Origin: Candidatus Dojkabacteria bacterium
GTDB lineage: Bacteria > Patescibacteriota > Dojkabacteria > JAOAGR01
Length of the DNA: 37,967 nucleotides
NCBI GenBank assembly: GCA_026415655.1
Contig: JAOAGR010000014.1
Span: 1-37,967, forward strand
Direction: 5' to 3'
Shown here piece by piece: positions 18,134 through 29,738 of this stretch (its first letter is position 1; every line of letters starts with the position of its first letter). The notes beneath the pieces were generated by a model, which was given only the letters and a program-made list of their open reading frames with translations, ran no database searches and was not told where the DNA came from. Both the position numbers and the translations under genes were made by a program.

Positions 18134-20044
18134 ATGATCAAAAAAATCAATGGAAAAGTAACAAGCATATTTGGAGATGATATCAATACAGATGACATAA
18201 TACCAGCATGGACATTGCAAGAGTCCACCGAAAGAGGCTTTTTTTCGCAATATGCTTTTGAAAAATATGATACAGATTTTGTAAACAGATGTAGGCAAAC
18301 AGAAAAAAACATAGTCATAGCAGGAAAAAACTTTGCTTGTGGATCATCTCGTGAACAAGCAGTTTATGCCTTACAAGGGAATAATGTATTAGCTGTAATT
18401 GCAGAGTCATATCCTGATATTTTTTATCGCAATTCACTGAATAACGGATTAATACTGATTACATTACCAGATACTTCAATATTTAATATAAATGATGAGA
18501 TAACAATAGATCTAGAAAACAAAACAATAACTGTGAATGGTACCAACATTATCAATTACGAAATGGATGACAGAGATAGAAATATATTTATGCAAGGTGG
18601 TGTAATTGGCAGAATTAGGAAGGATGTTGAGGCAAAAATAAATGGTGAAATAAAATCACAACTCCATTATACCGATGTATCGGTAGATTATTCTAATCCT
18701 AAAACAATAGCCGAAAAAATTATATCAGAGCATCTAGGATACGAAGTCAATCCTGGTGATAAAATCGAAAGGTTACCAATAGATATCTTATTCTTCAACG
18801 AAGTAATAGCCCCACCAGCAATAACAGAGTTTGTAAATAACTTCTCAGATATATACACAAAGCATGGACAAACAATAAAAGTGTTTGATCCTGAAAGGAT
18901 TTTTCTAATACCAGATCATACGGTACCATCATCATCAGTGGCAGTATCTGAAGGTATTGATTTGATGGAAAAATTTGCAGCTGATCAAGGAATAAAATGT
19001 TATAAAGAAGGTGATGGTATAGAGCACGTCGTACTTATTGAAGATGGTTATATAGTGCCAGGTGAAATCATATTGGGCACCGACTCACATACATGTACAA
19101 ATGGAGCATTAAATACATTTGCTTTTGGTATAGGTACAACTGATGGTACTTATGCATTGGCAACAGGATATATTTATGACTTTATAGTACCAGAAAGTAT
19201 AAGGATAAATCTTCATGGTAAACTCCCGCATGGGGTATATAGTAAAGATCTTATTTTGACAATAATTGGTCAATTGGGCGTAGATGGCGCTGTCAAAAAA
19301 GTTGTTGAATTTGGTGGTCCTGGACTTAGAAATCTATCTATGGATGCCCGTACCACAATAGCAAACATGGCTGTAGAAATGGGAGCCAGAACTGCAATCT
19401 TCGAACCAGATGAAATACTAGAAGAATATGTAAGAGAAAGGGCAAAATTTAAATATAAGTTTTATCGACCAGATCCGAATGCAAAATACGTACAGATCTT
19501 AGATATAGATATGAGTAAAATAGAGCCAGCAGTTGCATTTCCCCATAAACCATCAAATGTGACTGCAATATCAAAAATCGATGAATATATCCAAAAATCA
19601 CAAGAAATAAATGCGGTGGATTTTCCAGCACTGTCAGATGTAAAAATCACCGATGCATTTTTGGGAGCATGCACAAATGGAAGATATGAAGATTTTGTGG
19701 AAGCTGCAAAAATAATAAAAGGTAAAAAAGTACATCCATCTGTAAATTTTGTTGTAATACCAGCATCGAGAAAAGTCTATAACAGACTTTTGAAAGAAGG
19801 GATTTTAGAAATTTTTGCTGAAGCAGGAGCAAATATAGAGTCATCAAATTGCGGTCCATGCTTCGGAAAACATATGGGTGTAGTTGGAAAAGGAGCCAAA
19901 ATTATTTCTTCTTCAAATAGAAACTATATCGGTAGAATGGGATCAAATGAGGCTTATATATTTTTAGCTGCACCATCAACAGTAACTGCGGCAGCAATCG
20001 CAGGTGAAATTGTGGATCCAAGACAATTTTTAGAAAATAATTAA
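18134..20044 (+). CDS. fused 3-isopropylmalate dehydratase-type protein: N-terminal LeuD (swivel) + C-terminal LeuC (catalytic)
   Basis: LeuD part: GDDINTDDIIPAWTL, NFACGSSREQAVYAL. LeuC part: IPDHTVPS, LGTDSHTCTNGALNTFAFGIGTTD, FLGACTNGRYEDF, SSNCGPCFG. Confidence 0.9.
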   Translation: MIKKINGKVTSIFGDDINTDDIIPAWTLQESTERGFFSQYAFEKYDTDFVNRCRQTEKNIVIAGKNFACGSSREQAVYALQGNNVLAVIAESYPDIFYRNSLNNGLILITLPDTSIFNINDEITIDLENKTITVNGTNIINYEMDDRDRNIFMQGGVIGRIRKDVEAKINGEIKSQLHYTDVSVDYSNPKTIAEKIISEHLGYEVNPGDKIERLPIDILFFNEVIAPPAITEFVNNFSDIYTKHGQTIKVFDPERIFLIPDHTVPSSSVAVSEGIDLMEKFAADQGIKCYKEGDGIEHVVLIEDGYIVPGEIILGTDSHTCTNGALNTFAFGIGTTDGTYALATGYIYDFIVPESIRINLHGKLPHGVYSKDLILTIIGQLGVDGAVKKVVEFGGPGLRNLSMDARTTIANMAVEMGARTAIFEPDEILEEYVRERAKFKYKFYRPDPNAKYVQILDIDMSKIEPAVAFPHKPSNVTAISKIDEYIQKSQEINAVDFPALSDVKITDAFLGACTNGRYEDFVEAAKIIKGKKVHPSVNFVVIPASRKVYNRLLKEGILEIFAEAGANIESSNCGPCFGKHMGVVGKGAKIISSSNRNYIGRMGSNEAYIFLAAPSTVTAAAIAGEIVDPRQFLENN

Positions 20045-20053
20045 AAATAAATT

Positions 20054-21142
20054 ATGTCAAATTCAAATAATCAAAAAGAATTTAATATAGCTGTACTTCC
20101 AGGTGATGGAGTAGGGCCAGAGGTAGTCAAAGAGGCTATAAAAGTTTTAAATAAAGTATCTGAAAAATACCAGATCAGATTTAATTATCAAGAAGGACTT
20201 ATAGGTGCACAGGCTATCTACAAATACAATTCTGCTCTTCCTGAAGAAACAAAAGAAATCGTAGAAAATGCCGATGCTATACTTTTTGGTGCAGTAGGTG
20301 ATCCAGCTTTTGATAAAGATCCAAATGCAAAAGTCAGACCCGAACAGGGAATATTACAATTACGAAAATTATTAAATTTATATGCAAATATAAGACCAAT
20401 CAAGACATATAAAGAATTATATTCAAAATCACCATTAAAAGAAGAAATTATCAATGGCGTGGATTTTGTAGTAATACGCGAATTAACAGGTGGCATCTAC
20501 TTCGGTGAGCCTAGAGGTAGGACTGAAAACAGTAAAAAAGCTTTTGATACTTGTATATATTCCGATGAAGAAATAACTAGAGTAGGTAGGATCGCCTTCG
20601 AAATGGCGCGTAAACGTCGAAATAAGGTCACAGTTGTGGACAAATCCAACGTGTTAGCTACATCTAGACTATGGAAAGAAGTAATTAATAACTTACATAA
20701 AGAATACAGTGATGTAAATTTAGAATTTTTATATGTCGATAATGCAGCAATGCAAATAATACGTAGACCTGCAGATTTTGATGTAATCCTTACTGAAAAC
20801 ATGTTTGGAGATATTTTGACGGATGAGGCATCTGTGATTACAGGATCCATCGGCATGTTGCCATCATCATCAATAGGTGAAAAGGATGGAAAAAGAAGAG
20901 GGCTTTTTGAGCCTATTCATGGATCATATCCCGAAGGAGCAGGGAAAAATATAGCTAATCCTATTGGAACAATCTTGTCAGCTGCAGATATGCTTGATTT
21001 TTTAGGTCTTGATGAAGCATCTAATGCTATCCGAAACGCGGTCGACAAAACACTATCTGATGGAATATTTACTATGGATATAGCGAATGAAAATTACATG
21101 TCTTGTTCTGAGATGGGAGATGCAATAACAAGTAGAATATAA
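20054..21142 (+). CDS. leuB: 3-isopropylmalate dehydrogenase
   Basis: VLPGDGVGPEVV, PEQGILQLRKLLNLYANIRP (IPMDH-type), ELTGGIYFGEPRG, DNAAMQIIRRPADFDVILTENMFGDILTDEAS, EPIHGSYPEGAGKNIANP. Confidence 0.9.
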   Translation: MSNSNNQKEFNIAVLPGDGVGPEVVKEAIKVLNKVSEKYQIRFNYQEGLIGAQAIYKYNSALPEETKEIVENADAILFGAVGDPAFDKDPNAKVRPEQGILQLRKLLNLYANIRPIKTYKELYSKSPLKEEIINGVDFVVIRELTGGIYFGEPRGRTENSKKAFDTCIYSDEEITRVGRIAFEMARKRRNKVTVVDKSNVLATSRLWKEVINNLHKEYSDVNLEFLYVDNAAMQIIRRPADFDVILTENMFGDILTDEASVITGSIGMLPSSSIGEKDGKRRGLFEPIHGSYPEGAGKNIANPIGTILSAADMLDFLGLDEASNAIRNAVDKTLSDGIFTMDIANENYMSCSEMGDAITSRI

Positions 21143-21576: not shown

Positions 21577-21990
21577 CTAGCTCTTAGGTCTCTTCGCTCC
21601 ATACTTGGATCTTGCTCTTCTCCTATTTTCTACTGCCGCAGCATCCAAAGTACCCCTAACGATAGTATACTTAACACCGATGAGATCCTTAACTCTTCCT
21701 GATCTGACAAGCACCACCGAGTGCTCCTGCAAATTATGTCCTATACCGGGTATATAAGCTGTAACATACATCTTGTTTGACAATCTTACTTTAGCGATTT
21801 TACGCAGAGCAGAGTTTGGCTTTTTAGGCGTTGTAGTTCTTACTACTACACAAACTCCTCTTTTGAAGGGATTATTTGCTAAAGTATTTTTACGAGTATT
21901 TTGATTAAAATTTGTTCTCAACGCTAAAATTTTAATCTTTTCTTTTTTTTGTTTTCTTGGTTTTCTTACTAGTTGACTAATTCTGGCCAT
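21577..21990 (-). CDS. rpsL: 30S ribosomal protein S12
   Basis: ORF extends to 22041 but the likely start is [61 protein letters not shown]. Confidence 0.93.
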
Positions 21991-22030
21991 ATTTTTTAGT
22001 ATTTTATCATTAGATTCATTTTTATCAAAA

Positions 22031-25000
22031 TTAATAAACAAAATCTAATTCATCTGGATTGATTCTTGCAGACTCATCCACTGGAATCTTTCTACCCATG
22101 ATTACATTTTCTTTTAGACCTATCAAATAATCTTTTTTACCCATAATAGAAACATCAGTGAGTACACGTACTTGCTCCTGGAAAGATGCAGCTGACAAGA
22201 ACGACTCTGTCTTTAACGAAGCCTGTGTAATACCAAGTAATACCTCTGAATATCTTATTTCTTTCTTACCTTCGCTTCGTAATTTATTGTTGATTATTCT
22301 TATTACATGCTTATCTCTTATCTCTCCAATGACTAAATTTGTATCCCCCGGGTCTTCTACTTTTACATATCTACCCATCTGAGCAACAAGCACTTCAAAC
22401 ATCTTATCAGCAATATTTATCCCCTGCAAAGAATAAACTTTTTTCACCTCTTGGATAATATAAAGCTGTGCTTGTAACAATCCCTTAGTCTGTAACAATA
22501 ACCTAGGATCAATATTTCCCATAGTAATAGGCGTACCTGGTTCGATAGTATCACCATCAGAAACTAATAGTTCCTGATCATAAGAGACCTTATACTGTAT
22601 CTGTTCCTGTATAGTTGTTTCTACCAATACTCGATCTGGCTTTATGGAAACTTTACCACTTCGTGTAGATCTTATTTCCTCACCATTAGCTTTTATAATA
22701 AGCAAATCTCCGGCTTTAACGGTTCTTGTACGTGGTTTTATCATTACTCTATCCTCATCAGTATATGAATAGTCAACAACATCCACTATAGTATTTGTCA
22801 CAGTGACCTGATATTGTTTATTAACGTCATCTTTTTTGATACTTACCTGTCCTCCAATCTCTGAAATAATAGCAACTCCTTTCGGAATTCTTGCCTCAAA
22901 CAATTCTGTTACTCTTGGAAGACCCATTGTAATATCACCTGATGCTGAAGCAGCACCTGATTTGTGCTTTGTGTTTAAAACCAACTGTGTAGCCGGTGCT
23001 CCTACGGCTTGACCAGATATAATTCCTACTGATTTACCAATTTCTACAAGATCATTAGTAGAATAATCAAGACCATAGCATTGCTGACACACTCCAAAAA
23101 GTGTCTTACAAGTCAACGGTGAACGCACAAAAACTTCGTTTATACCCAATGACACAACTCTTTTTGCAAAACTTCTATCAATCATCTGTCCTTTTGTTGC
23201 AATAATATTGCCTTCATGTACCACATCAGCTTGCAAAACTCTACCCCTAATCCTTTCTACAAATGGTAAACCTCCCAATACATCGTCTTCTGCTCTTATC
23301 CAAATACCATCTTCAGACTTACAATCTTCTTCACGGACGAGTACATCATGTGATACTTCACACAATTTTCTTGTCAAATAACCCGCATCAGCTGTTCTAA
23401 GGGCCGTGTCAGCCAAACCTTTTCTTGATCCCTTTGCCGATACGAAATACTCAAACGCTGGAAAACCGCGCGAATAATTGGACTTTATCGGTAACTCTAC
23501 AATTTTCTGATTGATATCAAAAACTAACCCCTTTGCTCCGACCAGCTGTGATATAACATCATATGAAAATCTTGCCCCAGAATCGGCAATCTCTTTCAAA
23601 GCACTGTTTTTTTGAGAATAGTATGATTTAACAATATTTTCGACATTGGGAATAATTTCATTTAACCATAACTTTGAAAATTGCATGGATTTATCAAAAT
23701 CAGTCAAGAGCCCAAGTGATGAATAATAATTAAGTTCTTGAGTTTTCTTAATACCCTCAGCTATTAACTCTTTGATTCCTTCAGGTTCTACAAGATCATT
23801 ACTTCCAATAGTCACCCCCATTTTGGTTGAAAGATCAAAACCTAGTCTAATTACTTTATCAAGTGATTGTACAATTTCATCAGCAGTATACTGATCAGCC
23901 ATCTCGGCGTAAATTTTTCGGATAGCTTTTCGATCAATTAGTGCATTGACAAATGGATATCTCTCAGGCAAAAGTTCATTAAACAAAATGCGCCCAACTG
24001 TAGTATCAAGGATGTTTTCTTCTATTAATACTTTTATTTTATCTCTCAAACCAACCTTACCTTGCTCATAAGCAGTAATGGCCAATTTGGGGTTAGAGAA
24101 GAAATAAGGTTTTTCACCTTCAATATAGGTTAAATAATACAGAGCATGAACAAGACTCATACGAGGACTAAACAAGAAATCACCCGAACCAGCATTCAAC
24201 AGATTCTGTTGAGTAAACATTTTTGTCTTCACTTCCTCTATAGCATCTGGGCTTAAAGGAACATGTACAGCCATCTGGTCACCATCAAAGTCAGCATTAT
24301 AACCTTCAGTAATTAATGGATGAATACGAATCGCATCTCCGTCTACTAGGACAGGATAATAACCTTGAATACTTTGTTTATGTAGCGTAGGAGCACGATT
24401 TATCATCACTGGATGATTGTGAGTTACATCAGCCAATATATTCCATACAAATTCTGGGGGGTTACTTTGTTCTAGTATGTTCTTTGCACTTCTTACATTG
24501 CTTGCATGACCACGTTCAATTAATTGATAAATTACAAAAGGTTTGAAAAGCTCCAATGCCATGTGTTTAGGAATACCCACTTGATTTAAATTGAGGTCTC
24601 TTCCTGCACCAACAATTACAGAACGTCCCGAATAATCAACTCTTTTTCCTAAAAGATTTTGTCTAAACCTTCCTTCTTTTCCTCTAAGATTTTCAGAAAG
24701 TGACTTTAACGGCATTTTTCTCTTATTGACAACAACAGCACCTACTTGCTTGTGTTCATTGTCAAGAAGCGAATCTACTGCTTCTTGTAACATTCTCTTT
24801 TCATTTCGTAGAATAATTTCAGGAGCACCAATGTCAATTAGTCTTTTCAGACGATTATTTCTGTTTATAACTCTTCGATATAATTCATTTAGATCAGCTG
24901 TTGCAAATCTACCACCGGAAATTTGCACAATAGGTCTTAGATCTGCAGGAAGAACGGGCAACACTTCTAGAACCATCCATTCTGGTCTAATTTTATTTCT

Positions 25001-25927
25001 AATAAAACCTTGCACCAATCTTAGTCTGGCTAAGGCTTTTACACGCCTTTGTAAATTTTTAGATTTTGTATCTTTCTTTAATTCTTCTGCTAGTTCTTCA
25101 AGATTTATTTTTTTCAATAAATACTGTACTGCTTCAGCACCAATTTTGTAATCAAAAAATATTAAGTTTTTCTCCTCTAAAAGAATTCTTTCCTCTTCAG
25201 ACATAGTTTCTCCGACATTTAATCTTGACACTAAATCTTTTAGCTCTTGATATTGTTTTTCTATCTTTTTACGTTTTTCAAAGGATTCCTCTTTTAACTT
25301 TGCAATCTCAATACGCAATTTATGATCCAATTCATCAATGAGAAAGTCTGCCTCTTCTTCGGATAAATTCTTAGCTTTTATCTCTTTTACTTTTTCTTCT
25401 AATTCCTGTTTTTTCTTATTTATTTCTTTTTCGACTTCTTGATCCAGATTTTGCAATGCACTGGCTAATTCTTCCTCAACGGTAACTATGGCATCTTGTT
25501 TTGCATCAGGATCGGATTCTACAACTAAATATCTTGAAAAATAAACAACAGCCAATAATTTTTTATGTGGTATATCAAGTAGTAAAGAAATCTTTTGATG
25601 AGCAGTAGCCATAAACCACACATGTGTAACGGGCGCAGCCAATCTAATATGCCCCATCCTTTCCCTACGAACAATTTTAGACGTTACTTCAACTCCACAT
25701 TTATCACAGATAACTCCCTTATATTTCACTTTTTTATACTTACCACAAAAACACTCATAATCTTTAGTAGGACCAAAAATTTTTTCACACATCAATCCAT
25801 CAGGTTCAGCTCTATGTGTACGATAATTGATGGTCTCGGCTTTTTTTACTTCACCATGGGACCAAGTCAGAATATCTTGGGGCGAAGCAAGTTTAATTTG
25901 TATATATTTTATTGCTGTGTTTTTCAT
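22031..25927 (-). CDS. rpoC: DNA-directed RNA polymerase subunit beta'
   Basis: [69 protein letters not shown]. Confidence 0.98.
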
Positions 25928-25929
25928 AA

Positions 25930-28900
25930 CTATTTATTTTCTTGTTCAATTTGTTCTATTTTTACATTTGAACTATTTTGTTCTTTTTGCTGAGATCTAG
26001 AATCTGTATGTGATGATCTATTCAAGGTAAGTTTAATCTCTTCATTGTGATCATCATAAATTCCCGGATTCAAACCTAATGCTTTTAATTCATTAATAAA
26101 CACTCTAAATGACTCTGGTATACCGTCGATTTTAATTTCTTTTCCATGAATAATTGCCTCATAAACTCTATCTCTTCCGATAACATCATCAGACTTAACT
26201 GTTAACATTTCTTGCAAAATGGTTGGCACACCATGAGCCTCAAGTGCCCAAACTTCCATCTCTCCAAATCTTTGCCCACCAAATTGAGCCTTTCCACCGA
26301 GTGGTTGTTGGGTAATAACAGTATAAGAACCAGTGGATCTTGCATGAATCTTCTCTTCAGCAATATGTGTAACCTTTAATAAATATTTGTATCCAACTGC
26401 TATTGGATTAGGATAAGCTTCACCAGTGCGACCGTCATAAAGTATACACTTGTCTTTTATATCAAATCCATTCTCTCCCAAAAGTCTATCAAGTTCTTCC
26501 TCATCTGGTTCTGTAAATGGATGAATAGCAAACTTAGTATTTAGCGCCTCAGCTTTTAGAGATAAACTCATTTCTTTTACTACTACAAAATTAAGACGCT
26601 TCAAAAAGAGCGGATTAAATATAATATCAATTGGAGTACCATCGGCGAGATGAGGCATATCTGACTCAGGAATAATCTTAGGAATTACACCTTTTTGTCC
26701 TCCACGATCACACAATTTATCTCCGATATTTACCTCATGCAAATGAGCAACTTTTACCCTTACTTGTTTCAATACACCGTTTGGAAGTTCATCCGTATTC
26801 CTATCTAACACGATGGTATCAATTACAACTCCATATTCACCATGAGGTACACGCAAAGATACATCCATTACATCATAGGCACTCTCACCAAATATAGCTC
26901 GAAGTAATTTTTCTTCTGGAGTCAACTCCACTTCCCCTTTTGGTGCAATACACCCAACCAATATATCACCTGCTTTTACTTTCGCACCAATTCTGACTAT
27001 TCCATCTTCATTTAATTTGGCAAGTAATTCTTCGCTGACACCAGGAATATCACGTGTTATCTGTTCTGGACCAAGTTTCGTTTGTCTTACATCAAAAGTA
27101 TAAGTTTTTATAATGACAGAAGCTAATTTATGGTTTTTTACAAGTCTATCCGAAACAACATAACCATCCTCAAAGTCTAATCCATCAAAGTACATACAAG
27201 CTGCAAGTACGTTTGTACCTACTGCAATTTCTCCATCTTGTGAAGATGCAAAATCCGCAATCAAATCTCCCTTATTAACTTTTTGTCCTAGATTAACTGT
27301 AGGTCTTTGATGAATAAGAGTATTATCGTTTGAACTTTGAAACTTATCTAAATAATAAGTCTTTTCTCCGCTTTTTCCAGATATTACAATCCTTCTAGAA
27401 TCAACATATTTTACTGTTCCGTCCAAATCCGAATAAATTGCTCTACCTGACAATCTACAAATATCATCTTCTAGTCCAGTACCCACAATTGGTGCTTCTG
27501 GATATACCAAAGGCATTGCTTGTTTCATGTTTGAAACAGCAATTTGATTGCGATCTACAGCAGTATGATTTCCTAATGGTAACAGAGAGAAAACAACACC
27601 AGCCGAAGATGTAGGATCTACATCAACATAATCAATTTCATATACTGAACCGTCATAAAAATTATTCCATGTACGAATTGGTACTACTTCATCTAATATG
27701 TTTCCATATTCATCAGTTCTTACATTAGCATCCGAAAATTTATAATCTTTTTCCAAATCGGCGTCCAGGTATACAATTTCGGAAGATATATATGGCTTTA
27801 CCATTATCGTGGGTTTGGACACTTTTTGTATCTGATCAAAAACAGATTCATCTATAAATGTGCCTTTTGATATTGTATCTTCACCTATATTAAGATCTTC
27901 TGCTAAGATTCTATTAAGCGATTCTTCTATCTTTGCCACTTTAAATACCTTTCTATATGGTACTTCAATAAATCCATAATCATTGATCCTTGCAAATAAA
28001 GCAAGATGATTGATCAAACCAATATTCAATCCCTCTGGTGTTTCCGCAACACAAAATCTACCGTATTGTGAATAATGTACGTCACGGACAGACATTGTTG
28101 CACTTTCCGATGTTAAACCACCAGGACCTCCAACTGTAATATAACGTAAATTTGATAGCTCAGACAAAACATTTTTTTGAGACATGAATCTAGAAAGCGG
28201 GCTAGTACCAAAAAAACTTTTAAACGCCGTTACAATTAAAGTTGGGTTTAAAATATCTGCAGGCATCAAAAGCTCATCTGATGAATGAATACTCATTTTT
28301 TCTTTTATGGACCTTTCAAGCCTTTTAATAGCAGTATAAACAACTTCACCTAAAAGTTCGTTTACTCTTCGAATTCGTCTATTTCCAAGATGATCAGTAT
28401 CATCTGGCATTTGATTGCCATAGTTTACGTCTAACAACCTTTCAATAATACCGATTAGGTCACTTGCAAAAAACTTATAATTATCTTCGTTTAACTCTCT
28501 TTTGTATTTTTCATTTAACTTCTTGTTAAATTGATAACGTCCTACATCACCAAGATAGGTCCTTTGTGGATCGAATAATAATGACTCTATGTATTGTTTA
28601 GCGCTTTCTAGACTAGCCGTTACATCTGGTCTCATTCTATTGTAGATATCAAAAATCGCCGCAGGAGTAGAATTGGTAGGATCTTTAGCTAGAGTAGCTT
28701 CTATTATATTTACTTGATTTGGATTAAATTTTACATCTCTAAATAAATTTAGTATATCGTCGTTTGAGTTGTAACCCAGAGCCCTTAAAAGGGTGCACAT
28801 ATTGATCTTCGATCTCTTAGGTCCTAACTTGATGCTCATAACACCAGTTTTACTGATGTCTATCGTAAACCAAGCACCTCTTTGTGGAATAATTTTGGCT

Positions 28901-29385
28901 AAATATAACGGTAAACCATTGTAAAAAAGTCCATTATGTAAGAATATCACTCCTTCTGATCTAACAATTTGAAAAACAACTGCACGCTCATCACCATTTA
29001 TAACAAAAGTACCTCGATCAGTCATTAAAGGCACATCTCCTATAAATACTTGCTGTTCCTTTGCCTCACCCGTTTGTAAATTAACAAGTCTAAATTTCCA
29101 ATATAATGGAGCACTGTAAGTAAGACCATTTCTTCTTGCTTTTACCACATCATGTTTTGGCTGTTTAAAAACTGGATCAAGAATTTCTAACGACCACAAT
29201 TTTCCTGTTACATCTACAACAGGACTTATAGATCTAAACATTTCTACAAGATCTTTCTCTAAAAACTTTTTATAGGCTTCTAACTGTGATTCTACCAAAA
29301 CTGGTATATCAAAACGAGTTTTATTTTTTGATATGTCAAGCCTTATTTCTTTTAAGGCGTTTTTTGATTTTGTAACTTTGTTCAT
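25930..29385 (-). CDS. rpoB: DNA-directed RNA polymerase subunit beta
   Basis: GDERAVVFQIVRSEGVIF, SQYGRFCVAETPEGLNIGLINHLA, GDKLCDRGGQKGVIPKIIPESDMP, GGQRFGEMEVWALEAHG. Confidence 0.98.
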   Translation of the reverse strand: MNKVTKSKNALKEIRLDISKNKTRFDIPVLVESQLEAYKKFLEKDLVEMFRSISPVVDVTGKLWSLEILDPVFKQPKHDVVKARRNGLTYSAPLYWKFRLVNLQTGEAKEQQVFIGDVPLMTDRGTFVINGDERAVVFQIVRSEGVIFLHNGLFYNGLPLYLAKIIPQRGAWFTIDISKTGVMSIKLGPKRSKINMCTLLRALGYNSNDDILNLFRDVKFNPNQVNIIEATLAKDPTNSTPAAIFDIYNRMRPDVTASLESAKQYIESLLFDPQRTYLGDVGRYQFNKKLNEKYKRELNEDNYKFFASDLIGIIERLLDVNYGNQMPDDTDHLGNRRIRRVNELLGEVVYTAIKRLERSIKEKMSIHSSDELLMPADILNPTLIVTAFKSFFGTSPLSRFMSQKNVLSELSNLRYITVGGPGGLTSESATMSVRDVHYSQYGRFCVAETPEGLNIGLINHLALFARINDYGFIEVPYRKVFKVAKIEESLNRILAEDLNIGEDTISKGTFIDESVFDQIQKVSKPTIMVKPYISSEIVYLDADLEKDYKFSDANVRTDEYGNILDEVVPIRTWNNFYDGSVYEIDYVDVDPTSSAGVVFSLLPLGNHTAVDRNQIAVSNMKQAMPLVYPEAPIVGTGLEDDICRLSGRAIYSDLDGTVKYVDSRRIVISGKSGEKTYYLDKFQSSNDNTLIHQRPTVNLGQKVNKGDLIADFASSQDGEIAVGTNVLAACMYFDGLDFEDGYVVSDRLVKNHKLASVIIKTYTFDVRQTKLGPEQITRDIPGVSEELLAKLNEDGIVRIGAKVKAGDILVGCIAPKGEVELTPEEKLLRAIFGESAYDVMDVSLRVPHGEYGVVIDTIVLDRNTDELPNGVLKQVRVKVAHLHEVNIGDKLCDRGGQKGVIPKIIPESDMPHLADGTPIDIIFNPLFLKRLNFVVVKEMSLSLKAEALNTKFAIHPFTEPDEEELDRLLGENGFDIKDKCILYDGRTGEAYPNPIAVGYKYLLKVTHIAEEKIHARSTGSYTVITQQPLGGKAQFGGQRFGEMEVWALEAHGVPTILQEMLTVKSDDVIGRDRVYEAIIHGKEIKIDGIPESFRVFINELKALGLNPGIYDDHNEEIKLTLNRSSHTDSRSQQKEQNSSNVKIEQIEQENK

Positions 29386-29429
29386 ACTTTATTTGTGTTA
29401 ATAAAATTTTTTGTTGACCTTTATAAAAT

Positions 29430-29457
29430 AAAAAAAGCAAGTACAAAAAGTACTTGC
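29430..29457 (-). terminator. intrinsic-terminator-like hairpin in the putative rpoBC leader
   Basis: Minus strand: GCAAGTAC-TTTTT-GTACTTGC followed by TTTTTTTATTTTAT; 52 bp upstream of the rpoB start. Confidence 0.8.
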
Positions 29458-29515
29458 AGGCGAATTAAAAAGAAAAGATTTTTTCCCTAGTCCAAACATT
29501 TATAAAGACTCAGGA

Positions 29516-29543
29516 AGTATAGCATAGGATATAAATTTGTCAA
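29516..29543 (-). promoter_or_regulatory. near-consensus extended -10 sigma70 promoter directed at rpoBC
   Basis: Minus strand TTGACA (29543-29538), 16-nt spacer, TGC-TATACT (-10 at 29521-29516). Confidence 0.75.
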
Positions 29544-29561
29544 ATACCTTGCAGATAATAG

Positions 29562-29738
29562 CTACTTATCTACAACAATTGCCCTAACTACTAAAACATT
29601 ATCCTGAATATCAACAATCTCTAACACCGAACCACATATAGAACATTCTATCGTATCACCGACCTCTGGATTTACTAATTCTATCTCGAATGTGTTTTCA
29701 CACTCAGGACACTTGCATGTATATTTCGTAGCTGACAT
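29562..29738 (-). CDS. small zinc-ribbon protein, LysW-like (58 aa; absent from the ORF track)
   Basis: Translation by hand: MSATKYTCKCPECENTFEIELVNPEVGDTIECSICGSVLEIVDIQDNVLVVRAIVVDK*; two CxxC knuckles. Confidence 0.8.
   Translation of the reverse strand: MSATKYTCKCPECENTFEIELVNPEVGDTIECSICGSVLEIVDIQDNVLVVRAIVVDK

Follow-up and report, generated by a model that had tools for sequence, protein, structure and literature searches.

A probable transcription attenuator in the leader of rpoB in a Dojkabacteria genome, with a promoter-then-terminator order that recurs among relatives

In the stretch analyzed here (the window, 37,967 nucleotides of a Candidatus Dojkabacteria genome), a hairpin followed by a T-run lies directly ahead of the genes for RNA polymerase, and the locus raises the question of whether this predicted terminator ends the gene before it or acts within the leader of rpoB itself. 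The order on the minus strand is a lysW-like gene, promoter, hairpin, T-run, rpoB, rpoC and rpsL. The lysW-like gene (29562..29738, minus strand, 58 aa) is co-directional with rpoB and encodes a zinc-ribbon carrier (Pfam Zn_ribbon_LysW, 29.5 bits, cut-off 27; NCBIfam lysW, 30.2 bits, under the cut-off of 53.2). A -35 hexamer TTGACA (29538..29543, minus strand) and a -10 hexamer TATACT (29516..29521, minus strand), with the TG of an extended -10 one base ahead, were located by a consensus scan; they are separated by a 16-nt spacer and predict a start near 29509. The terminator hairpin GCAAGTAC-TTTTT-GTACTTGC (29437..29457, minus strand) has a perfect 8-bp stem and a TTTTT loop, and the U-tract TTTTTTT (29430..29436, minus strand) follows immediately 3'. 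The ATG of rpoB (25930..29385, minus strand, 1151 aa) stands at 29385, 51 nt from the hairpin. The next co-directional gene is rpoC (22031..25927, minus strand, 1298 aa, Pfam RNA_pol_Rpb1 domains), and rpsL for ribosomal protein S12 (21577..22041, minus strand, Pfam Ribosom_S12_S23) overlaps the end of rpoC, with which it probably forms one transcription unit.

Other features of the neighborhood were recorded. Both family f1 genomes have a lysW-like carrier gene directly ahead of rpoB, and in the window a PALP-family gene is divergent from it; the genes scanned did not include a full lysW-dependent pathway to lysine. A fused isopropylmalate dehydratase adjoining leuB (18134-20044 and 20054-21142, both plus strand) was found in this reduced Patescibacterium genome, the fusion being a single ORF of 636 aa with a LeuD-like small-subunit domain (residues 12-163) ahead of a LeuC-like large subunit (residues 190-631).

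The promoter was the top match of the consensus scan (11/12 positions, TG present). At a loose threshold, promoter-like matches in this AT-rich stretch were not rarer than chance (5 found, 7.4 expected), and because such matches are commonplace here the promoter claim rests on the near-perfect score and on conservation in relatives. The 21-nt hairpin had a folding energy of -10.6 kcal/mol (z = -5.5), which none of 200 shuffles equaled; the whole rpoB leader folded at z = -2.7, and terminator-like sites in 1.5 kb numbered 2, against 0.6 ± 0.8 in shuffles. The hairpin thus has the form by which intrinsic terminators are recognized, a stable GC-containing stem-loop and then a U-tract. It also occupies the position that defines an attenuator, between the promoter of rpoB and its start codon, as judged from sequence and conservation and with a predicted start. 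The sequence-only reading of this promoter, its start and the hairpin with U-tract ahead of rpoB was confirmed, with coordinates right within 1-2 bases. Rfam matches in the window comprised one tRNA only and no leader family at gathering score; a GcvB match (19.5 bits) fell far under its cut-off of 42.

One alternative is that the hairpin serves solely to end lysW transcripts, and that either rpoB has an undetected promoter between hairpin and ATG or the promoter seen upstream is a chance match. The lysW-like gene is co-directional and ends 105 nt ahead of the hairpin, and in an AT-rich leader promoter-like matches are common. No strong promoter was found, however, in the mere 51 nt between hairpin and ATG, and the comparison with relatives described below bears directly on this alternative. 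The own genome (882 kb, 14 contigs) was studied over about 300 kb, and the relatives over stretches of at most 20 kb around rpoB (78 same-class loci and 40 further phylum genomes). By sequence, the best named relative was a distant Patescibacteria MAG, the remaining hits being unrelated. The only same-family relative (G001, locus L124), whose RpoB is 61% identical, has the same order as the window: lysW, a perfect TTGACA-16-TATAAT promoter with TG, hairpin, T-tract and rpoB. The promoter therefore holds the same place before the hairpin in both, and the two hairpin sequences are unrelated. Sequence and comparison establish which elements are present and how they are ordered, and that the order is kept although the hairpin sequences are not.

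Across the class, a promoter followed by a terminator was found 5' of rpoB in 19/77 genomes, where dinucleotide shuffles of the same leaders gave 0.65 expected; in the phylum outside the class it was found in 11/39 (0.30 expected, dinucleotide shuffles). When upstream gaps of at least 120 nt at the same loci were compared, the design was present for rpoB in 21/62 and for other genes in 9/288 (Fisher P = 3e-11), and where the upstream neighbor was divergent in 11/34 and 2/122, respectively (P = 7e-7); both P values treat the genomes as independent and so disregard their relatedness. Since a divergent upstream gene needs no terminator at that place, the design cannot be the terminator of that gene, and its persistence beside divergent neighbors argues against the lysW alternative. 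Among 36 curated leaders, promoters scoring at least 10 lay upstream of the hairpin in 24/36 and downstream in 0/36, the softest of these figures, as hairpins guided the choice of leaders and more sequence was open to the search on the upstream side; perfect TTGACA hexamers numbered 20 upstream and 0 downstream.

A lack of conservation in relatives had been named as grounds for dropping the earlier interpretation; the outcome favored it, the order of promoter, leader, hairpin, U-tract and rpoB recurring in many families of class and phylum far above shuffle and gene-background rates. In a strict automatic scan about one class genome in four showed the design, and by eye weaker hairpins and less perfect promoters were seen in further genomes (families f5, f7, f8, f9, f11 and f13). 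The design is absent from family f2, where rpoB stands directly behind its upstream gene, and from family f6 (25 genomes), where a conserved own promoter is accompanied by hairpins with no U-tract. The predicted rpoB leader design is widespread, not universal.

The f6 hairpins, at the same place and lacking a U-tract, lend themselves to a different reading, in which the hairpin is a 5' mRNA stabilizer or a ribonuclease or protein site and no terminator. No consensus RNA structure was predicted in the 25 f6 leaders. Against extending the stabilizer reading to the other families stands the one-sided T-tract, a mark of terminators: when hairpins were picked by energy alone in the class excluding f2 and f6, mean T in nine nucleotides was 5.84 after the hairpin and 3.09 before it, and at least six T in nine were present after 31/44 hairpins and before 3/44. 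We regard the stabilizer reading as very improbable.

Two sequence features of these leaders were noted beside the comparison. In f6 leaders (for example L073, L087, L103 and L110) a recurring start GAGTTaCCTAAtTTTTGCTTTA follows a TTGACT-17-TAAACT/TAATAT promoter, and the 5' region of rpoB carries a TATGTTATAACAT-like palindrome. The rpoB leaders of two genomes of one genus (L075 and L085, family f10) both keep a long-range complementary pair, CTTTTAGGG ... CCCTAAAAG, with roughly 35 nt between its arms, 5' of the terminator hairpin.

On the order in G001, the excess over shuffles and gene background, the one-sided T-tract and the placement of the promoter, an element of the rpoB leader is preferred to a lysW terminator. 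The choice already made from the single sequence, an rpoB-leader attenuator over a plain terminator of the upstream gene, is supported by the order in relatives, including those with divergent neighbors; that the hairpin serves lysW only is quite unlikely. The hairpin and U-tract probably constitute an intrinsic terminator within the leader of rpoB, i.e. a transcription attenuator. RNA polymerase starting near 29509 would meet the hairpin after about 70 nt, where part of the complexes would stop, and the fraction reading through would set the output of rpoB-rpoC and possibly rpsL; the same hairpin could also end lysW transcripts. We infer from the arrangement that termination does occur, with some efficiency and perhaps in response to a signal.

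A competing anti-terminator in the leader, for which the first interpretation had called for a search, was not supported. In the window leader the best segment pairing with the 5' arm of the terminator reached -1.6 kcal/mol and surpassed none of 100 shuffles; over 30 leaders anti-terminator pairing had a mean z of 0.04. A trp-type attenuator, T-box or riboswitch with anti-terminator was rejected, as no pairing rose above shuffles. BoxA-like antitermination motifs (GCTCTTTA, TGCTCTTT) were not found above chance. Elsewhere in the own genome (L151 4629-7545, contig C6) lies a gene that, going by the N-terminal sequence of its product, apparently encodes isoleucyl-tRNA synthetase. A very strong hairpin, AGGCTCCCTGAATTTTTCAGGGAGCCT with T-tract (-21 kcal/mol), stands 26-53 nt ahead of this gene, and there is a promoter-like match upstream; the leader gave no Rfam T-box match, and the hairpin may act as an attenuator or else end transcripts of the gene before it.

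The element was then compared with known systems. In E. coli a partial terminator in rplL-rpoB, before rpoB, limits rpoBC transcription (PMC4670729; PMC6181997). That attenuator, like the present element, is a partial intrinsic terminator directly 5' of rpoB, but its setting is a long ribosomal-protein operon, in which it uncouples rpoBC from rplKAJL, whereas here the terminator lies in the short leader of a dedicated rpoB promoter and the upstream gene does not encode a ribosomal protein. Membership of the rplL-rpoB type was rejected, the upstream gene being lysW-like and a promoter lying in between. The mycobacterial rpoB-rpoC genes also form one unit with dedicated leader control, but there two promoters and an inter-promoter region are involved and PMC6181997 offers no read-through evidence for them. 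The trp/his/ilv-type attenuators share with the present leaders the order of short leader ORF, terminator and gene; here, by contrast, there is neither a competing anti-terminator nor a run of regulatory codons, and the stop codon mostly lies less than 20 nt from the terminator, against more than 20 nt in that type (PMC4824070). Since the gene context of the E. coli type is lacking and no anti-terminator of the trp or riboswitch types was found, this is an element predicted to work like an attenuator outside the E. coli, trp and riboswitch types. Searches of openly licensed papers yielded no account of an attenuator in the rpoB leader of Patescibacteria.

If the terminator acts on rpoB, it may do so in a fixed manner. 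A fixed partial terminator would involve no regulation and would either hold rpoBC output below the level that the promoter strength allows or insulate rpoB from upstream read-through; the absence of an anti-terminator, of conserved leader sequence and of an Rfam family speaks for it, as does the description of the E. coli attenuator as a device that decouples rpoBC from ribosomal protein genes (PMC4670729). A weaker promoter, however, would be a simpler route to the same effect, many relatives have no upstream co-directional gene that would need insulation, and the upstream ORFs (uORFs) described below are not placed at random. We give this alternative an appreciable chance, though one well short of even; premature termination as regulation is the reading proposed instead.

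Regulation might alternatively be autogenous, as in E. coli, with terminator efficiency set by polymerase activity or transcription frequency and no leader peptide involved. Steward and Linn, in 1992, reportedly proposed a possible autogenous control by way of transcription frequency (reference in PMC2659441). Rifampicin raises read-through of the E. coli rpoBC attenuator (PMC6181997). Nothing in the present sequence points specifically to such control, however, and the pattern of uORFs suggests a ribosome in the role of reader; autogenous control is accordingly graded unlikely.

The uORF pattern was as follows. An ATG-started ORF of at least 4 codons ended before the hairpin in 20/35 leaders, usually 0-21 nt ahead of it. 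Of all triplets, ATG was the most concentrated in the interval from +24 to +39 counted from the -10 (17 of 30 there, 6.9 expected), a position range picked after inspection. For ORFs ending next to the hairpin, ATG ranked 1/59 among triplets in the class and 3/59 outside it. The candidate uORF of the window (MFGLGKKSFLFNSPASTFCTCFFYFIKVNKKFY and a stop, 33 codons, 29398..29499, minus strand) runs from 29499 to 29398 through the hairpin and stops 12 nt ahead of the rpoB ATG; a stop-free run of 33 codons has a chance of about 7% at the composition of the window. G001 has a 39-codon ORF that ends exactly at the hairpin, and the two ORF lengths have a chance of 5-7% each. Neither peptide conservation across leaders nor a visible Shine-Dalgarno sequence before the uORFs was found. 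Two loci outside the class (L194 and L197) have uORFs of equal length, 18 codons, which stop 3-4 nt before the terminator and whose peptides differ. In this best pair, differences by codon position (7/9/5) gave no third-position excess and no sign of selection at the protein level; frame and length are kept.

A ribosome on the short leader ORF would be the most likely way to relieve termination, in the pyrBI/pyrE manner. Attenuation at the pyrE leader is of the pyrBI kind. As in these E. coli leaders, the candidate ORF reaches or overlaps a predicted intrinsic terminator and an anti-terminator would not be needed; unlike them, the regulated gene here is rpoB, the uORFs are short and have no visible Shine-Dalgarno, and their translation and any pausing are putative. 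At pyrBI a closely following ribosome blocks the hairpin, as discussed in PMC4824070. Ribosomes terminating at a stop codon repress E. coli transcription terminators that lie within about 20-27 nt of that codon, and amino-acid attenuators keep more than 20 nt between the two (PMC4824070); in vitro, hairpin termination was lowered, to half, by a trailing ribosome (PMC10135430). The proposal for rpoB is drawn from these distances and effects and from the uORF stops near the hairpin: a ribosome close behind the polymerase would block the hairpin, tying polymerase supply to translation. We advance ribosome relief of the rpoB leader terminator tentatively, as possible rather than probable. Its extension, a phylum-wide translation-coupled attenuator of polymerase synthesis in Patescibacteria in which peptide and hairpin sequences turn over and the layout is kept, is doubtful at present; if true, cells would produce polymerase only as long as translation keeps up with transcription.

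How a cell fixes its amount of RNA polymerase is a long-standing question that has been addressed mostly in E. coli, and knowledge of gene regulation in the Patescibacteria, whose genomes are reduced, is very scant. A layout kept across many families, with no conserved sequence, suggests that selection acts on premature termination before rpoB in bacteria remote from E. coli, and the cell probably sets its amount of polymerase by letting only some transcripts past the leader terminator. The placement of the uORFs offers a concrete and testable link by which translation may govern polymerase supply.
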